Shown: in pieces, positions 12,684-29,009 of the stretch
Layout: the number at the start of each line of letters is the position of its first letter
Numbering within the stretch: the first letter of the stretch is position 1
IMG/VR virus record: IMGVR_UViG_3300030012_001875
Coordinates: 1 to 29,076 of that record
Source: a virus
DNA length: 29,076 bases
Reading direction: 5' to 3' (one strand)
The notes under the pieces: model-generated
Databases searched by the model: none
The model's input: only the letters and a program-made list of their open reading frames with translations
What the model was told of the DNA's origin: nothing
Program-made: the position numbers and the translations under genes

Positions 12684-12807
12684 ATCTGTGAAAAAATGAC
12701 CTCACAGAATCGCTTGTATCGAACGTAAGATATTCAAGTAATACTATACGTCCAAAATCTAACAAAATTGCTTAGAAGCGATATCTGTAGCTCTCACAGC
12801 ATTTAGC
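12684..12807. other. convergent intergenic junction between the two transcription arms
   Basis: 124 bases where plus- and minus-strand transcription meet. TCTGTGA (12685-12691) pairs perfectly with TCACAGA (12702-12708), and ATTGCT (12767-12772) pairs with AGCGAT (12777-12782) through one G-T. Neither is followed by a proper poly-T tract on either strand, so they may act as weak or bidirectional terminators. No promoter, gene or attachment site is seen. Confidence 0.4.
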
Positions 12808-14538
12808 CTATATTGTGTAGATTTTTACTGGTTTTTCCTTACCTTTGACAAGAATAGACTCTAACTCTGTTACTTCACCCTCATATTTGCTGATGGTTGC
12901 CTCACCTATAACTAAATTTTTACCTACTGTTTTACATGAAGACTCTAATCGAGCTGCTAGATTACAAGCATCGCCTAATACACTATATTCAAAACGAGAT
13001 GCACTACCCATATTTCCTGCAACAACTTCTCCAGAATTTATTCCAATACCAATTTCAATATCTAACTGTGCTTCTTGCATTGCGTGTCGTATTTGAAGGG
13101 CTGTCTCAATAGCTTTCTGTTCATGGTTCTCAACATCTACTGGAGCATTCCAAACTGCCATCATAGCATCGCCAATATATTTATCTACCATCCCTTCGTT
13201 AGCTTTGACCGCATCTGCTTGAATAGTTAAAGCTTTGTTCATTATCTCAATAACTTCTTCTGGTTCTAGTTTCTCTGACATAGAAGTAAAACCTCTGACA
13301 TCGGTAAACATTATCGTACAGTTTCTTCGTTCACCACCTAATCTTAATAACTCTGGATTCTTTTGTAGCCTAGCTACTTGTCGAGGGTCAAGATAAGTAG
13401 AAAACTGCTTCTTGATTTGTTGTCTAAGTTTAAACTGAGTTCTAAAGTTTAGATAGAACTGTTGAGCAGCAATCAGAAACAAACTTATTAGAGTCCATGT
13501 AACATCTATTAAAAGATTCTGCTGTATAAAAGACCAACCAAGATAAGCTACTCCACCAAAGATAGTTAAGGCTGAGACTAAGCCTGTAGTAATACCTAAG
13601 AAACCAGTTAAGATAGCCACTAGTAAACCAGCTACTACTAAGATACTTAGTTCGGCAAACAAACGATAGTCCGGTATGTTGGGTGTCTCTAATAAAATAG
13701 ACTCAGCTAGAGCTGCTTGAATTTTATGTGGCTCTAACAAACCCACAGGAGTTGCTAGTTGTCTTTGTATTCCTGCTGCAGTAAAACCAACAAAGACAAA
13801 CTTACCCTGCACATCCATTTCAGTTAGGTTAGTCTCTGGTGTTTCGACCCAACTAATCCATTTCTTACCTGTCGAATCTGTTGGGATAGGCGGTATACCT
13901 TTTACTCTTATCATCTCTATACCATTCTCATTAGTTTTGATTTGATAAGTATTACCACCTCCTAGTATCTTGAGAACTTCTGTACCGAAAGAAGCTACCC
14001 AACCATCTGGAGTTTGTTGGATAAGAGGTATCTGTCTAACTAGGTTATCTATATCAACCGGCACTGACACAGCTCCTTGAGCTGCAGAGTCTTTTAAGAC
14101 TTGGATGTTTTCTAAAAATCCTGAAGCATGTACTAAACTAACATCAGGTCCTAAGATAACTGTCCCGTGTGTCTGTGGATATTTATTATTGTTTACTTCG
14201 GGCATTGCTATGACACTAGGAGCTAGACCAAGCATCTCAGCAAAGGCTTCATCGCCTCCTAGTCTATCAGGATGAGGAAAGAGTATTGTCCAACCAACTC
14301 CTAATGCTCCTTGTTGTAGTAATTTAAGATGAATATCTGCTAAGGTCTGCCGAGGTAAAGGGTAACCGCCTTGCTGGTCTATAAACTCTTCATCAATGTT
14401 AAGGATAGTAAAGTAACCAGTAGGCTCTGGAGTCTTGACAAGGGCATCAAAGGTTTTAAGTCTTAGTATTTCCAAAGGCGGAGCATTAAAGACTAGAGGT
14501 AGTATTAGTAGAAATAAAAGTAAACTCGCCCACTTCAT
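12808..14538 (-). CDS. CHASE2-domain transmembrane class III adenylyl cyclase
   Basis: Predicted inner-membrane receptor cyclase, 576 residues. An N-terminal span (4-19) precedes a periplasmic CHASE2 sensor domain (about 25-285). Three spans follow (about 294-360), then a cytoplasmic linker (QFSTYLDPRQVARL) and the cyclase domain (405-576). Catalytic residues are all visible: metal aspartates D413 (MFTDVRGF) and D457 (GDAMMAVW), adenine-selecting K453 (VDKYIGD) and D523 (VLGDACNLAARLE), and transition-state N526 and R530. This predicts cAMP as product. Bacterial CHASE2-cyclases are often encoded next to FecR-domain genes, as here. ATGA overlap with the gene upstream. An intact receptor cyclase is highly unusual for a phage. 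Confidence 0.93.
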   Translation of the reverse strand: MKWASLLLFLLILPLVFNAPPLEILRLKTFDALVKTPEPTGYFTILNIDEEFIDQQGGYPLPRQTLADIHLKLLQQGALGVGWTILFPHPDRLGGDEAFAEMLGLAPSVIAMPEVNNNKYPQTHGTVILGPDVSLVHASGFLENIQVLKDSAAQGAVSVPVDIDNLVRQIPLIQQTPDGWVASFGTEVLKILGGGNTYQIKTNENGIEMIRVKGIPPIPTDSTGKKWISWVETPETNLTEMDVQGKFVFVGFTAAGIQRQLATPVGLLEPHKIQAALAESILLETPNIPDYRLFAELSILVVAGLLVAILTGFLGITTGLVSALTIFGGVAYLGWSFIQQNLLIDVTWTLISLFLIAAQQFYLNFRTQFKLRQQIKKQFSTYLDPRQVARLQKNPELLRLGGERRNCTIMFTDVRGFTSMSEKLEPEEVIEIMNKALTIQADAVKANEGMVDKYIGDAMMAVWNAPVDVENHEQKAIETALQIRHAMQEAQLDIEIGIGINSGEVVAGNMGSASRFEYSVLGDACNLAARLESSCKTVGKNLVIGEATISKYEGEVTELESILVKGKEKPVKIYTI

Positions 14539-14978
14539 AAGTCACCTGCTTTATGCATGACGTAAAGATTATTGAGCAGTACTAAGCGATACAGAGTATT
14601 GATATTTGTTATCTGTTGAGGAGAAGCATCTCTAATAATCAAATAACTACTAGCACCTTTAAGAACTAGTAACAACTCTAAGGAAGGTTGTTTGGGTAGT
14701 AGAGGATTAGCTTCTAAAGCATAGCCTTTAATATTGACAGCTCTGTGTGTGGTATAGATATCCAAAAGCTGTAAGGCTATAAATTCTTGGTAAGGTTTTT
14801 CTTGTAGTTTAAAATGTAGCTGAGCTTTAGGTAGACTGTAATCTACATAAGCCTCTGGTTTGTTGAGGTAAGGTGCTTTAGTAATCCGCCAATAGATATC
14901 AGGCTTAGCCGGAAGACTGCTTGATAGTAATGGAAGAGTCACTACCGCCATTAAGAGTAATAGTAATTGCTTTGCCAT
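14535..14978 (-). CDS. small membrane protein with signal-like N-terminus (147 aa)
   Basis: Starts MAKQLLLLLMAVVTLPLL, a signal peptide or first span, followed by a short extracytoplasmic segment (KPDIYWRITKAPYLNKPEAY). Three hydrophobic stretches follow near 66-80, 99-115 and 128-142. The motif LLDIYTTHRA with ALEANPLLP resembles small DUF5658-type membrane proteins, which carry a Leu-Asp-x-x-Thr-Thr helix and an E-x-NP turn; this is recall, not a search. It lies between the FecR and cyclase genes, overlapping the first by 74 bases and the second by 4, so it probably belongs to the same membrane complex. Function unknown. Confidence 0.6.
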   Translation of the reverse strand: MAKQLLLLLMAVVTLPLLSSSLPAKPDIYWRITKAPYLNKPEAYVDYSLPKAQLHFKLQEKPYQEFIALQLLDIYTTHRAVNIKGYALEANPLLPKQPSLELLLVLKGASSYLIIRDASPQQITNINTLYRLVLLNNLYVMHKAGDL

Positions 14979-16020
14979 CTTGTATAATTAAAACCTTGTA
15001 ACTGTTGTTCGTATCTAAATCTAATCTTACTGTGTCTTCTACCTGTCTTAAGAAAGTTAGCACTGTGTCAGTAACAAAAGTATTTACCTGTGTGTTAGAG
15101 TCAAAACCAAAAGCTGTGCCTTGAACATTAATGTCACCAGTGTTCAAAACATTTTGTTCTAACTCATCTACTTCCTCTATGATACTCAAGAGGTCTTCTA
15201 AGAAATTTACATCTAAGTAATTGATGTCAAGTTCGGTAAACTCTAGGTTATCTTCTGCTAAGTAGTCTTGTTCTAGTTCATCAAACTCTAAGTAGTCTAT
15301 GTCTAGGATATTATCAGAGCCATCTGTTTGTTCTTCTTCGCTAACAAAGTTTGGGTCTTCCTTTGGTGGATTGACAATCAACATGTTGTCAATAATATCT
15401 AGAGTCAAGTCTAGGATAACAGGACTACTAGGTGCCGACTCAAACAACTCAACTGTAGTAGCTTGATAGGGCTTGTTGAGAACTACTTGTCCTACTAGAG
15501 TAGAAACAACTATCTCACCGGAAGCAATACCGTTCTCATCTGGTAGTAGTATTATCAAAGACCTGCCGAGTTCATCGACAGTAACAGTAAAGTCTGTGCC
15601 TCTAATACCAATGGTAGCACTAGGAGTCTCGATAGATATGTTTTCTTTATTGATAGTAGCTAGTTTGCCACTAATAAACCTAGCTGTGCCACTAGCAAAC
15701 TGTAGAGCCATCTTAGATTTAGATGGGTCAGGGTCATAGATAAACTCATCTATAACTAATTGTGAATGTTCTGTGAGACGGACTTGAGATTCGTCAAGAA
15801 AGGTAATGCCTATCCGACCATTAGAAGTCTCAACATTATCAAAACTATTAATAGCAAAGGAGAGAGCAGCAGCAAAGGGGTCTTGTTCCCTTACTACTCT
15901 CCCTAAGCCTTTTAGTTCTGTTATGCTTCCTATACTAGCAACTTGTGCTGGTGCCGCCATCATTTTGTATGATGCAGACAGTACCACTATTGCCAGTAGA
16001 AATAATCTTAAGCCAATCAC
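14905..16020 (-). CDS. secreted FecR-domain protein with acidic Leu/Asp repeats
   Basis: A signal peptide (1-23, cleaving near MAAPAQ) leads to a FecR domain (about 30-185) with the family signature: VRLTEHSQLVIDEF, ASGTARFISGKL and IETPSATIGIRGTDFTV. A strongly acidic region (about 225-290) has repeats such as DYLEFDEL, DNLEFTEL and NYLDVNFLEDLL. The C-terminus ends in beta strands (AITITLNGGSDSSITIKQ) reminiscent of one curlin repeat. Classical FecR senses iron citrate; stand-alone FecR proteins beside CHASE2 cyclases are thought to form envelope sensors, which fits the neighbour at 12808. The start is GTG 16020, inside the curlin gene (86-base overlap), without a clear ribosome site; internal ATGs at 15963/15960 would lose the signal peptide. 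Confidence 0.82.
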   Translation of the reverse strand: MIGLRLFLLAIVVLSASYKMMAAPAQVASIGSITELKGLGRVVREQDPFAAALSFAINSFDNVETSNGRIGITFLDESQVRLTEHSQLVIDEFIYDPDPSKSKMALQFASGTARFISGKLATINKENISIETPSATIGIRGTDFTVTVDELGRSLIILLPDENGIASGEIVVSTLVGQVVLNKPYQATTVELFESAPSSPVILDLTLDIIDNMLIVNPPKEDPNFVSEEEQTDGSDNILDIDYLEFDELEQDYLAEDNLEFTELDINYLDVNFLEDLLSIIEEVDELEQNVLNTGDINVQGTAFGFDSNTQVNTFVTDTVLTFLRQVEDTVRLDLDTNNSYKVLIIQDGKAITITLNGGSDSSITIKQSSG

Positions 16021-16639
16021 TTGCTAAGGTTGAACTCTGTGTAATATTAAATGCTCGGCTATCCCCTGTTTGGTCTAGATAAAAGTAACCATCAGCATAG
16101 CCACTACCATTGTAGACTAAACTGTTTGAGTCACCATCTATATCTAGATAGGATGTAGCTCCATCGACATCTATTGTGTAGTCTATGGTATTTGAATCAC
16201 CATTGATAACCCAGTCGAGGTCTAAGTATTCTGCTAAAGCATTGGTAGCAATATTTAATTCAAATTCATTGCTTGACCCTGTAACGTCAACATTATAGTT
16301 ACCGCCATCGGCACTATAAGTATCTGTTGGGTCTACTTGAATTTCAAATATATTACTATCACCGTCAAATTCAAAAAAACCTACTAGTGAATCTAGGACA
16401 ATGTCCCCAATAAATTTGTTGGAATCCCCTAATTGATTGATGTCTAAAGTCATAGAACTACCAGCTAATTCTAGAGCAGTCATTTGACCTGAAGCAGCAT
16501 CAAGACCACCAATAAGGTTGGAACCACCTAGCTGTTCAACATCTAAGTTTAAAGTTGCACCAACTTGATTGATGTATATTTCATTATCGGCTTTAACCAT
16601 AAAGCCTAAGAAAGCTAACAATATAATTATTCTATTCAT
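15935..16639 (-). CDS. curlin-repeat-like secreted protein (amyloid fibre subunit candidate)
   Basis: A 234-residue protein with a signal peptide (MNRIIILLAFLGFMVKA) and then about ten curlin-like units centred on G-[DS]-S-N. Examples are INQVGATLNLDVEQ, LDINQLGDSNKF, DGDSNIFEIQV, TGSSNEFELNI, NGDSNTIDYTI, DGDSNSLVYN, DQTGDSRAFNITQ and TGNSGTVCIIQ. The central Gly residues fall at about 27, 38, 60, 71, 93, 121, 147, 169, 192 and 216, spacings mostly near 11 or 22, as in CsgA/CsgB strand-loop-strand repeats. Outer repeats keep the Gln; middle ones replace Gln/Asn by Asp. It would be exported through the CsgG-like pore encoded just upstream (8-base overlap) and may form fibres on the infected cell. 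No CsgE gene is seen. Confidence 0.75.
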   Translation of the reverse strand: MNRIIILLAFLGFMVKADNEIYINQVGATLNLDVEQLGGSNLIGGLDAASGQMTALELAGSSMTLDINQLGDSNKFIGDIVLDSLVGFFEFDGDSNIFEIQVDPTDTYSADGGNYNVDVTGSSNEFELNIATNALAEYLDLDWVINGDSNTIDYTIDVDGATSYLDIDGDSNSLVYNGSGYADGYFYLDQTGDSRAFNITQSSTLASDWLKIISTGNSGTVCIIQNDGGTSTSC

Positions 16640-17450
16640 AACTCCAAAATCTCCTCTCTATTCCTTGTTGTACTATTTCTAGTACACTTGTCTCTATCGC
16701 TTTCTGGAGAGCAATAGATACACTTTCGTTTTGTGTAACACCAGATTCTATTTCTACTAACTCTGTCCCAGCTTCAATAAATCTAAAGACATCGTTAGAG
16801 ACTCCTACAGATAGGATAGTCTTTGATGTTAGTACTTCTATTAATATCTCTCCGGTATTAACAGAAACTAATCGTAAAGATACTGTAACAGTGTCCTCAC
16901 GATACTGACGGCTCATGCCGATACCTAGATATCTAGCACCATTACCACCACTTTTTAGGTTCGTGTCATACGAAATGACCCCACCCTGAACCAGTAGACC
17001 TGCAAAGATAAGAGGGTTTAACTCTGTATTATCTTCAAAGTCTTTACGGGTTGTTCTAATTATTTGTCGTTCTTTAGTTAGGTTATCTAAACCTACTCTC
17101 TCGACAACTGTAAAAAACTGACCATCTGCAGCATGTTTAAAAGCTCTGATAAGTAAGGAATCAGGTGACTGTGTAATAGCAGAACTGAATAAAGCAAAGG
17201 TACTGTTACTCTTTCTTTGCCCTGTTAGGTCTGTGAAGCTATTAGGATAAATAGCAATAGTCGGCTTAAGCTTAGCCGGTCTTAAGTTTTTTAACTCCTC
17301 TGACTGTAACTCTAATACGGTACTTGGTCTTTTCTTTGAATAAGCTCCTATAACATTCTCATCTAGGAGAGAACTATGTCTAAGACTTGAACAACTAGAA
17401 AGTAAAAGAACCGATAGGAACAGTAATCTCTGTAACATTCCCTTCTGCAT
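16632..17450 (-). CDS. csgG: CsgG-family outer-membrane curli secretion pore (lipoprotein)
   Basis: A lipoprotein signal (LLFLSVLLLSSC, lipidated Cys20) is followed by a mature domain with the CsgG landmarks in order: TIAIYPNSFTDLTGQ, VVERVGLDNLTKERQIIR (116-132), GGVISYDTNLKSGGNGARYL, GIGMSRQYREDTVTVSLRLV, VNTGEILIEVLTSKTILS and NDVFRFIE. The length (272) matches E. coli CsgG (277). CsgG forms a nonameric outer-membrane channel for unfolded curlins. In the pore-constriction loop the Tyr/Asn/Phe set of E. coli is only partly kept: GQRK is followed by SNSTFALF, with one extra residue and only the Phe clearly aligned. The start is ATG 17450 or 17438, both inside the csgF gene. Confidence 0.93.
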   Translation of the reverse strand: MQKGMLQRLLFLSVLLLSSCSSLRHSSLLDENVIGAYSKKRPSTVLELQSEELKNLRPAKLKPTIAIYPNSFTDLTGQRKSNSTFALFSSAITQSPDSLLIRAFKHAADGQFFTVVERVGLDNLTKERQIIRTTRKDFEDNTELNPLIFAGLLVQGGVISYDTNLKSGGNGARYLGIGMSRQYREDTVTVSLRLVSVNTGEILIEVLTSKTILSVGVSNDVFRFIEAGTELVEIESGVTQNESVSIALQKAIETSVLEIVQQGIERRFWSYE

Positions 17451-17868
17451 CTGTAATCTTTAATGTAATCATAGTGCCATCAGCACTAACACTGTATTCT
17501 ATGGTGTTACCCATTAGCTCTAAAGTCCCGAAAGTACTTGGGTTTTCACCAAACAAAGCATCTACTAGTTGTCTGGATAGTTGAGCATATATTCTTGATT
17601 CTAAGTTTCTGATAAATCTTGCTAGAGTTGTATTGTCTGCTTCTCTTTCTAGCTCTTCTCGATAAGCTCTGATTTCAGCTTCAATAGCTGCCTTTCTATT
17701 AAACTCTTGATTCTCTATGGTTAGGTAATGAGCTGAGCTATTGATGCCACTAAATGATGGCGACTTAAATTTATGTACTAACTCATCGGCAAAGATATTA
17801 CCGCTAACACTTAACGTCATAACTAAAAACCCTGCAATTAATAGGGTTAGTTCTATAGTTTTTAACAT
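17395..17868 (-). CDS. csgF: CsgF-family curli assembly factor
   Basis: 157 residues. ATG 17868 is chosen because GAGGAG lies just upstream and the product then starts with a clean signal peptide (MLKTIELTLLIAGFLVMTLS, cleaving near FADE); the longer frame from 17904 would put a charged tail before it. The mature N-terminus, VHKFKSPSFSGINSSAHYLT, matches the CsgF motif F-x-F-x-N/S-P-x-F-G/S-G that plugs CsgG. A charged helical middle (AEIRAYREELEREAD) and a beta C-terminus (GNTIEYSVSADGTMITLKIT, EGNVTEITVP) also fit. CsgF extends the CsgG pore and helps nucleate curlin at the surface. The csgF-csgG order is the same as in bacterial curli operons. Confidence 0.9.
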   Translation of the reverse strand: MLKTIELTLLIAGFLVMTLSVSGNIFADELVHKFKSPSFSGINSSAHYLTIENQEFNRKAAIEAEIRAYREELEREADNTTLARFIRNLESRIYAQLSRQLVDALFGENPSTFGTLELMGNTIEYSVSADGTMITLKITDAEGNVTEITVPIGSFTF

Positions 17869-17875
17869 AATCTCC

Positions 17876-18163
17876 TCAATCTTTTCGTTGGTCTTTCTTT
17901 CCATCTGCCCTTGCTAACCTATCTACATCTACAGGTATACCCATAGCTGTGCGACACATTGTGTCTATTCTTATTATATCGTTGTCTATTTGTCTTATCC
18001 TATCTATTAAAGCTACTATCATGCCATGTTGGGTATCTAATTTTTTATGAACATCTGCGATTAAATGATTAAATAGTTTCCAAACCATCCAACCTGCAGC
18101 TACAGCAAAAGCTGCTGGAATTCCAACAGTTTCTAAAATGTCCATCCACGTTCGTGTATTCAT
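17876..18163 (-). CDS. single-span membrane protein, possible holin or lysis accessory (95 aa)
   Basis: One hydrophobic segment (ILETVGIPAAFAVAAGWMVW, about 9-28) is followed by a heptad-like charged region (KKLDTQHGMIVALIDRIRQI) and a basic C-terminus (ARADGKKDQRKD). Small proteins of this shape sit in lysis regions of many phages. It is coupled to the membrane gene before it (shared stop/start base) and its stop overlaps the csgF ribosome site. Holin function is inferred from topology and position only. Confidence 0.5.
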   Translation of the reverse strand: MNTRTWMDILETVGIPAAFAVAAGWMVWKLFNHLIADVHKKLDTQHGMIVALIDRIRQIDNDIIRIDTMCRTAMGIPVDVDRLARADGKKDQRKD

Positions 18164-18606
18164 TATCTACCCTTAACCAAGCTACCACCAAAGTACATAC
18201 CTATAATTGCTGAGACTAAGTTAGTGTCTAGTTGTGTTATTACCAAGCCCTGAAAAGTAACCCATTCAAATATTTCTCTACCTTCTTTAAAGAACCAGAA
18301 GCCCGGGTTCCAGTTAGTGTAACCAACAGTTACAGAGACATCCGGATAGTAGACTGCTACTAGTTTAGGCAGTAACACAATAGCAAAGACTGAAGTCAAA
18401 GCTATGATTCGTCTAGTCCAAGCAAAACCTTTGTCTTTTAAACCGTGGTCTAAGGACTGTTGTCTTTCTTTCATACCAAACTCACCACGAGTTATTAAGA
18501 GCTTTTGTTGTTCTGCTTTAGCTTTTCTACTTTCAGCCCAGACACTCATCAAACCACCAAGGATTGTCGAGGCCAACATAGTTATTATCTCAAAAGGGAA
18601 ACCCAT
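18163..18606 (-). CDS. two- or three-span membrane protein, possible holin (147 aa)
   Basis: An N-terminal hydrophobic stretch (GFPFEIITMLASTILGGLMS) precedes a charged helix (ESRKAKAEQQKLLITRGEF), then a span (TRRIIALTSVFAIVLLPKLV), a periplasm-like aromatic loop (NWNPGFWFFKEGREIFEW) and a final hydrophobic region (TNLVSAIIGMYFGGSLVKG). The arrangement recalls membrane proteins found near lysis genes of marine phages; this is recall, not a search. It is coupled to both neighbours by one-base overlaps. Together with the next gene it is the best holin candidate here. Confidence 0.5.
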   Translation of the reverse strand: MGFPFEIITMLASTILGGLMSVWAESRKAKAEQQKLLITRGEFGMKERQQSLDHGLKDKGFAWTRRIIALTSVFAIVLLPKLVAVYYPDVSVTVGYTNWNPGFWFFKEGREIFEWVTFQGLVITQLDTNLVSAIIGMYFGGSLVKGR

Positions 18607-26702: not shown

Positions 26703-29009
26703 TTAATCAAAAATATCACCTATCATATCTACTATGTTTGAGTATGAACTATAGTGTTTACCAATCGCTGAAGCATTATCAATAGCTTGTTGGATTAAAG
26801 CATTCTTTCTATTTAATTCATTTTCTTCGTGTCTCCACTGTCTATCAGCATTATCTCTTTGTTCTTGCCAAATAAAACTTAAACTAGCTGTATTTAAATT
26901 ATAAGCATTCATAGCATTCTGCATATTAATTTGATTTTGCACAGCTGTATTAGCTAAATTAGCTTTTCTTCGCCATTCAAAGTTTGACTGAGTAATAGCT
27001 TGTTGGTTAGCAATATTAAATCTATCTCTTTCAAAAGCTACTTGAGAATTATATTTATTTATATCATTTACTATTATAGCATTAGATTTAGCAACTTCCA
27101 TTTCATTAGCGACTCTTCTAGCTTCAGCAGAGTTTTGAGCAGCTGCATTAAATTGTTTAGCACTATTTATTTGAGCAGCATTAAATTTATCTATATTAGA
27201 AGCTAAGTTAGAATTAAATTGTTCTACTTGCATTTCTGAAGCTGCATTAAATTGCTCAGCTGCATTTAAAGCTCCTTGATTAGATAACATTCTTTGTTGT
27301 TCTTGTTGAGCTTCTAGCATAAATGATTGTTGTGTATTACTTAAGTTAGCCATATCCATAGCTAAAAAGTTTTTAGCATTTGATATTTGAGCTTGTTGAA
27401 ATAAATTAGCTTCAGCTATATTTGCTTGTGACATAAGAACAGCATTTTGTACCACAGCTTGTTGTCTATTACTTGCTTCAGTTAAACTTACAGTTTGTAA
27501 AAATTTACTATTAGCTAATTCAGTTTGTTGGTCAGCACTAAACTGAGCCATGTCCATTTGAAAAACAACATTAGCTCTTTGTAATGCAGCTTGTTGTTCT
27601 CTTTGAGCATCTGCTTCAAAAGCTTGAGCTTCAATGCTTTTTTGTTGTGATACAGATTGTTGAATAGCTTGAGCATTTGCTTGTGCTAAAGGTATTGAGG
27701 ATTGAATAATAGTATTAATTAAAGTATCTCGACCAACTGTTGAAGCTGACATACCTCTTTCTGCTAACATTTTTTCAACACTAGCTACAGCAGGTTTAGC
27801 CCATACTGGTATCTCACCTGATTCTAAACCATCTAATAAAGTATTAAGTTGATTAGAGACTAAAGCTTCTTCAGGTAAACCTTCAATAATACCTCTTTGT
27901 GCTTCTGTAAAATCTGTAAGTCTATCTTCAAGAGCTTCTGGTTCATTACCAAGCTCTGTAATATCTTCTTCAGATAAACCAGCATTTCTTAATTGTTTCT
28001 TAGCTCTAGTAAGTCTTGATAAAGTTAATCCAGCATTTTTAGCTGCTTCAGCTTTAGCTTCAGGACTTAAAACTCCAACAACTCTTTTAGCTAAAGCACC
28101 CTCTTCTATTTCTACTTTAGCTGCTTTAATTTCTCCTACTCTTGCAATATTAATTTGTTGAGCAATAGCTTTTGGACTTAGTTCTCCAGTTGCAACTTTA
28201 ATAGCAACATCTTCTGGAAGAGTAGTTACATCTAATATTTTTTTAACTTGAACTTCAACAGGGTCTCCAGCTTTTTGAATGTTTTCTATTTCTTGTATTT
28301 GTTCTTGACTTGGTTGTGGTAGAGTAGCTATTTCTGACATTGGAATACCAAAGTCTTGCTCAATTTTGTAAGCAGGAATATCTTCACCGATAGGAACTTC
28401 TTCAACCGCAGGAATTTGTGGAGCTTGAAAGTCTCCACTTAATATATCTTCAGCTAACTTTCTACCTTCTGAAGGAGAAGGAGTAGGAGCTGGAGTAGGC
28501 TCAGGTGCAGGTGTTGGTTCCGGTGCAGGTGTAGGTTCCGGTGTTGGTTCTTGTCCACCCGGGTCAGTCGGGTCAGGCTCAGGCTCACCATCTCTAGGTG
28601 GCTGGTCTCTGTCATAATCGCCAAAGGCTCCGAAGTCTCCAAATCTTGAAGTGCCTGATAAGTCTGGTTGAGCTATAGGAGCAGGACTAGCAATAGGAGC
28701 TGCTTTATCTGTCGGTACTTCAACTGGCTGACTAGGTGCAGGTGTAGGGCTAGGTTCCATACCAACATCAGGTCTACCTGTTTTAGCTCCTTTCGGCACT
28801 GCACCAAAAGTAGGTTCTGGTTGAGCTGGTTGATTAAGCTCATCTATTTGTGCTTGGCCTTCTCTTGCTAGATTTCTAAATCTACTAAGTTGTCCAGACC
28901 TAACAGGACTACCACCTGTAAACTTTTGTTCTCTTTCGACTTTACCACCTTTTCTGTAATCTTGTCGTACAGATACTGTTCTTGCTCTTTTGTTTTTATT
29001 TTTTGCCAT
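26703..29009 (-). CDS. proline-rich, Ala/Gln coiled-coil virion protein (768 aa)
   Basis: A basic N-terminus (MAKNKNKRARTVSVRQDYRK, then GGKVEREQKFTGG) is followed by a disordered Pro/Glu/Thr/Ala stretch (about 145-180, repeats of PEPTPA) and a helical middle. A segment (WAKPAVASVEKMLAERGMSA, STVGRDTLINTIIQSSIPLA) recalls the 'GLS-x-S' region of internal core proteins in other podoviruses. The last 320 residues are almost all Ala, Gln, Asn and Ser in long helices (QFNAASEMQVEQF, QFNAAQINSAKQFNAAAQN). It is the first complete gene of the minus arm in this window. I infer an internal core or ejection component, or a tail-associated fibrous protein. Confidence 0.5.
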   Translation of the reverse strand: MAKNKNKRARTVSVRQDYRKGGKVEREQKFTGGSPVRSGQLSRFRNLAREGQAQIDELNQPAQPEPTFGAVPKGAKTGRPDVGMEPSPTPAPSQPVEVPTDKAAPIASPAPIAQPDLSGTSRFGDFGAFGDYDRDQPPRDGEPEPDPTDPGGQEPTPEPTPAPEPTPAPEPTPAPTPSPSEGRKLAEDILSGDFQAPQIPAVEEVPIGEDIPAYKIEQDFGIPMSEIATLPQPSQEQIQEIENIQKAGDPVEVQVKKILDVTTLPEDVAIKVATGELSPKAIAQQINIARVGEIKAAKVEIEEGALAKRVVGVLSPEAKAEAAKNAGLTLSRLTRAKKQLRNAGLSEEDITELGNEPEALEDRLTDFTEAQRGIIEGLPEEALVSNQLNTLLDGLESGEIPVWAKPAVASVEKMLAERGMSASTVGRDTLINTIIQSSIPLAQANAQAIQQSVSQQKSIEAQAFEADAQREQQAALQRANVVFQMDMAQFSADQQTELANSKFLQTVSLTEASNRQQAVVQNAVLMSQANIAEANLFQQAQISNAKNFLAMDMANLSNTQQSFMLEAQQEQQRMLSNQGALNAAEQFNAASEMQVEQFNSNLASNIDKFNAAQINSAKQFNAAAQNSAEARRVANEMEVAKSNAIIVNDINKYNSQVAFERDRFNIANQQAITQSNFEWRRKANLANTAVQNQINMQNAMNAYNLNTASLSFIWQEQRDNADRQWRHEENELNRKNALIQQAIDNASAIGKHYSSYSNIVDMIGDIFD
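28483..28550. repeat. short tandem repeat encoding the PEPTPA stretch
   Basis: The unit GGTGCAGGTGTTGGTTCC at 28504-28521 recurs as GGTGCAGGTGTAGGTTCC at 28522-28539 and partially at 28540-28550, with a diverged copy before it. In frame it encodes repeated Pro-Glu-Pro-Thr-Pro-Ala on the minus strand. It is likely to expand or contract by slippage or recombination. Confidence 0.75.

Follow-up and report, generated by a model that had tools for sequence, protein, structure and literature searches.

A FecR-linked CHASE2 nucleotide cyclase in the curli module of a phage from IMG/VR

A receptor-type cyclase gene at the end of a curli module

The DNA analysed here, referred to as the window, is the whole of the linear IMG/VR virus record IMGVR_UViG_3300030012_001875 (29,076 bases), from a marine phage. 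The gene in question lies on its minus strand at 12808..14538 and encodes a CHASE2 class III nucleotide cyclase of 576 amino acids (aa), as judged by Pfam, sequence matches in the PDB, an AlphaFold2 model and a residue alignment. An earlier note, made from the letters of this DNA, had described an open reading frame with CHASE2, membrane spans and a class III cyclase domain, and had proposed profile searches and structure prediction as checks; both bear the description out. In Pfam, CHASE2 covers residues 10-304 (E 1.5e-30, 107 bits against a cut-off of 26.3) and Guanylate_cyc residues 405-574 (E 2.1e-24, 86.6 bits against a curated cut-off of 21.9). The PHROGs family phrog_35576, of unknown function, spans residues 3-575 (E 4e-127), and the sequence matches in the PDB are class III cyclases, with 6fht as the best (E 2.3e-33). 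The AlphaFold2 model (44 sequences, mean pLDDT 89.8, pTM 0.71) consists of a helix at 2-16, a mixed CHASE2-type domain at about 17-290, helices at 292-313, 316-339 and 347-379, and a class III cyclase fold at 403-575; four membrane helices are predicted. The protein therefore has the layout of a CHASE2 receptor, in which CHASE2, scoring over its cut-off, precedes membrane helices and an output domain in the cytoplasm. The closest solved folds belong to both adenylyl and guanylyl cyclases of class III (with matches to CyaC, CyaB and Cya2), and in a viral structure library an uncultured Caudovirales protein annotated 'COG4252 Predicted transmembrane sensor domain' aligns along almost the entire protein (TMq 0.91).

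The catalytic residues D413, K453, D457, D523, N526 and R530 are all present at the positions named in the earlier note. We take D413 and D457 to be the metal aspartates, N526 and R530 the transition-state pair, and K453 and D523 the adenine-specifying pair. At the level of sequence and predicted structure, we regard the product of 12808-14538 as confirmed to be a class III cyclase of the receptor type that is encoded by a phage and whose active site is intact.

The earlier note missed the curli (type VIII secretion) and FecR context of the gene. Reading leftward from 18163, all on the minus strand, the order is a 95-aa protein, CsgF, CsgG, a curlin-like protein, FecR, a 147-aa protein and the cyclase. 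CsgF (17395..17904; Pfam CsgF 4.9e-15) and the CsgG outer-membrane curli secretion pore (16632..17450; Pfam CsgG 1.6e-50; NCBIfam CsgG 3.6e-47, under its cut-off) are followed by a 234-aa curlin-like repeat protein in the CsgA/B position (15935..16639). The latter gave no family at a useful E in a Pfam scan and is assigned by homology only, with a tblastn match of 32% to HTVC008M gp016, 'curlin-associated protein, CsgB'. The FecR-domain protein (14905..16020, 371 aa) is recognised by Pfam FecR (3.7e-11, 43.7 bits against 24), by phrog_37870 and by its model. The window thus holds CsgF, CsgG, a curlin repeat protein, FecR and an adenylate cyclase in the conserved order of the pelagiphage type VIII secretion system (T8SS). 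The 147-aa gene between FecR and the cyclase (14535..14978, minus strand) has a weak likeness to DUF5658 (E 0.11), and its stop overlaps the cyclase start. It is accessory, being limited to close relatives, with a 57% variant in L012, and was not found in most relatives. An anti-sigma FecR is expected beside a FecI-type sigma factor and a TonB receptor; neither was found among the eight other window proteins scanned with Pfam and PHROGs.

The leftward block of genes starts at 29009 and the cyclase is its last gene, followed by a terminator-like hairpin (12685..12708, minus strand) that comes from a consensus scan only, which finds seven of these hairpins in the region and 3.3 in shuffled sequence. 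As the cyclase ends this minus-strand structural block, we infer late transcription of the module.

FecR and CHASE2 genes are neighbours in phages and in cells

A scan of viral contigs returned 33 near relatives of the cyclase at 59-100% identity, and a profile scan of IMG/VR contigs returned at least 574 confirmed relatives among the 600 matches listed. From the profile scan 80 were kept, four of them already in the first set; the relatives of both scans, with the isolates HTVC008M and Melnitz included, make up 111 viral loci, none with an internal stop in the matched stretch. FecR adjoins the cyclase in 98 of the 111, upstream on the same strand in 94 and on the opposite strand in four. The remaining 13 have less than 1.5 kb of sequence upstream of the cyclase and are too near a contig end to tell. 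Where both genes share a strand, the gap is at most 139 bases in 80 loci and 370-1,797 bases in 14, the wide gaps being filled by the 147-aa gene, a gene for curlin or other frames.

The same neighbourhood exists in cells. Among 14 genomes reached via cyclase relatives, FecR domains adjoin CHASE2 domains in several; G003, G004, G005, G006 and G009, for instance, have FecR at most 500 bases upstream on the same strand. For a less biased count, 142 genomes were sampled from the class of G008; CHASE2 was present in 67, and FecR was searched in 43 of these. FecR lay within 1.5 kb of 21 of the 92 listed cellular CHASE2 places (0.28 expected) and within 3.5 kb of 31 (0.56 expected).

A group of alphaproteobacterial cyclases that includes the one of Pelagibius marinus ranks with the closest cellular entries of the tree, in which the fork between this group and the phage clade lacks resolution. 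In P. marinus, the gene directly before the CHASE2 cyclase encodes a 2,169-aa protein (L041:3216-9725) with FecR near the N-terminus and RTX repeats. Just outside the phage clade stands the cyclase of MED657, a metagenome-assembled genome (MAG), whose contig encodes a 1,317-aa FecR protein with coiled-coil-type matches, a TolC-type OEP, a HlyD protein and the cyclase. From these two arrangements, we conclude that the cellular device can pair a CHASE2 cyclase with a surface-type protein that bears FecR, sometimes accompanied by the secretion system of that protein; in the phages, secretion falls to curli.

A SAR11-family genome (G112, locus L142) has a CHASE2 protein of its own with a SpoIIE phosphatase output, followed by a 435-aa protein and then FecR, 2.4 kb away. 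This is apparently a native FecR-CHASE2 device with a different output.

Relation to published modules and cellular systems

The earlier note had regarded cAMP (cyclic AMP) production by a phage as a new way of controlling a host. The phage cyclase is instead a member of a published phage curli module, and it is not new as a means of phage control because adenylate cyclase and FecR in pelagiphage curli modules were published in 2022 and isolates are annotated accordingly. The main text of that study (Wittmers 2022, PMC9599517) reports the module with FecR and an 'adenylate cyclase' in nine HTVC023P-type genomes and in myoviruses, proposes aggregation, superinfection defence or import as its role, connects FecR with iron through iron-citrate regulation, and suggests adenylate cyclase, histidine kinase and FecR as a further means of regulating the T8SS. 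Placing the cyclase in the service of the curli module is therefore partly the idea of its authors. The gene order described there (a gene labelled histidine kinase, CsgF, CsgG, curlin, FecR, sometimes a second curlin, adenylate cyclase) is also that of the window, which differs by its extra 147-aa gene between FecR and the cyclase. Whereas PMC9599517 interprets FecR via iron-citrate regulation, we interpret it as the partner of CHASE2. The term CHASE2 has no occurrence in the main text of PMC9599517 or in the papers listed for CHASE2 with phage terms, and a literature search for pelagiphage and adenylate cyclase returned only PMC9599517. A search on phage-encoded adenylate cyclases as auxiliary metabolic genes listed two papers, both about phages of Pseudomonas aeruginosa. 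The 2020 pelagimyophage paper (PMC7029224) and the Melnitz paper (PMC9004378) treat the CsgGF part of the module, and 'cyclase' does not occur in the main text of either.

The records of HTVC008M (NC_020484) and Melnitz (MZ577097) already annotate the cyclase. Their proteins resemble that of the window (33-35% identity over 96% of the query) and stand in the same module, but they are longer, belong to genomes of 141-147 kb and are separated from FecR by a different gene, annotated in Melnitz as a curlin repeat protein. The Melnitz cyclase also differs in having Ser at the N526 position. What the present analysis adds is the identification of FecR as the probable CHASE2 partner, and the seeming lack of a recognisable receptor in the likely host.

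Two cellular systems invite comparison. According to the passage on Campylobacterota in PMC9239204, CHASE2 cyclases of that group are mostly clustered with FecR, and a CRP-like protein occurs in 86% of the species. These clusters differ from the phage module in containing a phosphodiesterase and a TPR protein, and the passage names no curli genes. Sinorhizobium meliloti offers a precedent for outer-membrane-to-inner-membrane cyclase signalling: as in the arrangement considered here, an outer-membrane component, NsrA, signals to inner-membrane adenylate cyclases of the CHASE2 type, CyaK, CyaD1 and CyaD2 (PMC7529298, PMC13001267, PMC5498481), and the passage on CyaD1 states that without CHASE2 it makes cAMP constitutively (PMC5498481). 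Unlike in the phage, the cAMP receptor of S. meliloti, Clr, is known, the candidate signal is a plant protein, and the relevant passages of these papers mention no curli pore.

Conservation of the viral cyclases

Across 107 distinct phage copies, the residues D413 (105/105), K453 (106/106), D457 (106/106) and R530 (105/105) are invariant in the copies covering each position, and N526 is conserved in 104 of 105, with Ser in one. At position 523, 94 of 105 copies have Asp and 11 have Ser; the base-specifying pair thus varies more than the earlier note implied. Pairwise dN/dS (the ratio of nonsynonymous to synonymous substitution rates) of the cyclase against seven relatives is 0.06-0.18, similar to the core genes for the ribonucleotide reductase large subunit (0.06-0.14) and the polymerase (0.09-0.21). 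The cyclase is under purifying selection, and it is present in both podovirus-type and myovirus phages.

Structure of the FecR protein

The FecR protein consists of an N-terminal helix, a signal peptide by its position, a FecR domain at about 31-200, an acidic stretch at about 215-290 and short C-terminal beta strands. Its model has a mean pLDDT of 70.3, which is near 90 over the FecR domain, poor at about 215-290 and moderate over the C-terminal strands. The sequence matched none of the solved-structure sequences at E<=1. The PupR cell-surface-signalling domain aligns to the model with Z 15.8 and rmsd 2.5 over 136 residues in VIA-align (Foldseek E 1.3e-4), and 5ix9, a 'cell surface anchoring domain', with Z 9.5 and rmsd 2.2 over 73 of 76 residues (Foldseek E 0.024); we take 5ix9 to be the anchor of a giant ice-binding RTX adhesin. 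In our reading, FecR is probably a component of the periplasm that would sense the fibre being secreted, or hold it, and engage CHASE2. Residues of about 225-290 form a conserved acidic stretch with repeated D-x-L motifs and very low model confidence.

FecR ends in an NGGxxSxITIxQ tail that is near-invariant in 81 distinct phage-type copies and missing from the 10 cellular FecRs compared, the phage-type set including five sampled loci on MAG contigs that resemble phage DNA; the last Gln is kept in 98%. The motif [SN]x5Q occurs at most four residues from the end in 67 of the 81 tails, compared to 5.6% in shuffles, and in 0 of 10 cellular FecRs, at least one of which was cut by the stretch examined.

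An apparent sender without the usual receiver

The DNA polymerase of the contig is nearest to those of the Pelagibacter phages HTVC115P, HTVC104P and HTVC103P (51-53% identity), and HTVC115P shares the genome plan, with polymerase and ribonucleotide reductase genes pointing rightward and then a leftward block. Given the HTVC-type polymerase and the shared plan, the host of this contig is probably SAR11-like. No curli or cyclase genes were found in HTVC115P by annotation, CsgG search or cyclase search, and bases 1-25000 of the window had no match to phage records at the nucleotide level. SAR11 genomes were picked with four SAR11 16S probes. All four match two genomes of the alphaproteobacterial sample, in which the one probe searched throughout is present in 2 of 385 genomes, and the family of one of these two genomes (60 genomes, drafts) was used as the presumed host family.

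In this family PF00027, the cyclic-nucleotide-binding (cNMP-binding) domain, is nearly absent, being detected in 2 of 60 genomes and in neither case as a convincing cAMP receptor. One protein is of the FNR type by our reading of its N-terminal cysteine cluster, and the other matches are two ABC exporters in G404, a MAG that also holds a phage module. HTH_Crp_2 exceeds its cut-off in one of the 60 genomes, in the FNR-type gene, and 13 more match weakly below it. PF00027 was likewise absent, even at E 1, from 21 phage records (20 with the cyclase, the window included, and HTVC115P; some are fragments). In contrast, all nine tested genomes that hold cellular cyclase relatives have PF00027 matches, 10-27 each; G005 has a cNMP-binding open reading frame, FecR and the CHASE2 cyclase in a row, and G008 also has PF00027 close to its CHASE2 gene. 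Given this distribution, the phages seem to carry a sender without the usual receiver, within the limits set by draft genomes of undisclosed completeness, a predicted host and a profile to which an unusual receptor might be invisible.

A native class III cyclase of SAR11 was considered and rejected in a search confined to class III. The two matches in 60 genomes (G404 and G440) encode phage-type cyclases, one with 55% identity and FecR upstream and the other with 36-37%. Their contigs also carry the only two CsgG matches in the family, and we take them as phage modules in MAGs because they share CsgG and their cyclases are phage-type.

A possible trans-envelope relay and its alternatives

With moderate confidence, we propose that FecR and CHASE2 form a trans-envelope relay in the phage curli module that would turn the secretion or assembly of curli into a nucleotide signal at a late stage of infection. 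The curli module would be transcribed late in infection, and periplasmic FecR would read the state of curlin secretion through CsgG, or that of the fibre. FecR would then engage the CHASE2 domain of the inner-membrane cyclase, and the cytoplasmic cyclase dimer would make a cyclic nucleotide, probably cAMP. If the cyclase does signal, infection would give SAR11-type cells a second messenger that they otherwise seem to lack, and the missing receptor poses a clear question, namely what reads the signal. The FecR-CHASE2 link also offers a mechanism, open to testing, for the curli module published for pelagiphages, and IMG/VR contigs carry the cyclase in large number.

Several observations weigh against this relay. 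In 4 of 98 loci (L066, L068, L076 and L079), the cyclase and FecR lie on opposite strands, with the cyclase pointing the same way as the ribonucleotide reductase genes; joint transcription is therefore not obligatory, and an inversion or move of the cyclase is tolerated. In cells, 71 of the 92 listed CHASE2 places have no FecR within 1.5 kb, a count blurred by contig ends and unlisted places; the pairing is thus frequent there without being a rule. The Ser at position 523 in 11 of 105 distinct copies means that the product may not be cAMP in all phages. The idea that the FecR tail is a curlin repeat is retained only as a hint, since its likeness to phage curlin profiles is not significant (hhalign probability 8%); no curlin fold was seen among the fold matches of the FecR model, which barely cover the C-terminal part. 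With no receptor found in the phages examined or the presumed host family, the signal has no known reader. Finally, the interaction, activity and expression of every phage copy are predictions here.

A more specific reading, which we put forward only tentatively, is that the device senses secretion of the phage's own fibre and makes a messenger in a host family seemingly without a class III cyclase or a recognisable receptor. The messenger would be read by an undescribed host or phage receptor or act outside the cell, and FecR would anchor the fibre in the periplasm, as FecR domains would do at the base of the giant RTX surface proteins beside cellular CHASE2 cyclases.

It is unlikely, but deserves attention, that the first steps run as in the relay and that a receptor outside the cNMP-binding fold, of host or phage, reads the signal. 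Selection has kept the catalytic residues in spite of the lack of PF00027 in the phage records and its near absence in the host family, which fits such a receptor; however, there is no candidate protein, and the absence of PF00027 from drafts and fragments is not proof. We consider it rather unlikely that the cyclase is a hitch-hiker that arrived with a bacterial curli/FecR module and whose product is useless to the phage. The apparent lack of a receptor in the host family would suit a useless product, but the low dN/dS, the metal aspartates invariant over distinct copies, the retention of the gene in podovirus-type and myovirus phages, and its at least 574 relatives among the 600 matches listed all argue against it.

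The earlier note had favoured cAMP made on a periplasmic signal and a host reprogrammed through CRP-family regulators. The intact adenylyl-type active site and the PF00027 proteins of all nine cellular-relative genomes, close to the CHASE2 gene in G005 and G008, speak for such control, which is nevertheless improbable for the presumed host: PF00027 is confined to the FNR-type protein and the two ABC exporters in 2 of 60 genomes, is missing from the phage records, and the host itself is a predicted one.

The second proposal of that note, a decoy or counter-signal against a cyclic-nucleotide defence (Pycsar or CBASS) in which cAMP competes with the defence messenger, found no support and is very improbable. 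PADLOC PycC models do match the phage cyclase domain (best 6.7e-29), but this domain is common to class III cyclases, others of which may match likewise. A Pycsar system is expected to have a cNMP-binding effector gene beside its cyclase; none of the seven neighbours of the cyclase that were scanned had a PADLOC match, and PF00027 was not found in the window at E<=1. Membership in Pycsar was rejected because only the shared cyclase domain matches. The phage cyclase shares that class III domain with PycC and differs from it by its CHASE2 sensor, its curli context and the lack of a detected cNMP-binding effector. The cNMP-binding domain is also absent from the 20 other phage records and almost so from the presumed host family, and a membrane sensor tied to FecR and curli would be superfluous for a decoy. 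Contamination by host DNA, which the note had named as grounds for refutation, or an assembly artefact has a negligible probability because of the 33 near relatives found on other viral contigs, flanked by phage genes wherever a contig extends far enough, the further relatives in the second scan, two isolate groups, FecR beside 98 of 111 cyclases and the lack of internal stops in the matched stretches.

Further genes of the module and related contigs

The head of the module is the 95-aa protein (17876..18163, minus strand), which matches phrog_18771 of unknown function (2.6e-21) and has, by our reading, a membrane stretch and a coil. No kinase domain was found in it, and Pfam gave no family at a useful E, so that the position ahead of csgF, labelled histidine kinase in PMC9599517, holds a gene without a kinase domain in the window. 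Relatives of the 95-aa protein precede csgF in HTVC008M and Melnitz, and such proteins occur in pairs in L038, L040 and L051. In our reading, the odd part is probably the 'histidine kinase' label rather than the 95-aa gene.

The module is adjoined by a 147-aa membrane protein (18163..18606, minus strand; phrog_38283, 2e-8, unknown function), which is perhaps holin-like.

Phage-type cyclases are also encoded on six contigs (L037, L038, L039, L040, L051 and L052) binned in MAGs of Bacteroidota, Neomarinimicrobiota and a Planctomycete. Five of the six carry other module genes, and the contigs are probably phage DNA in those bins.
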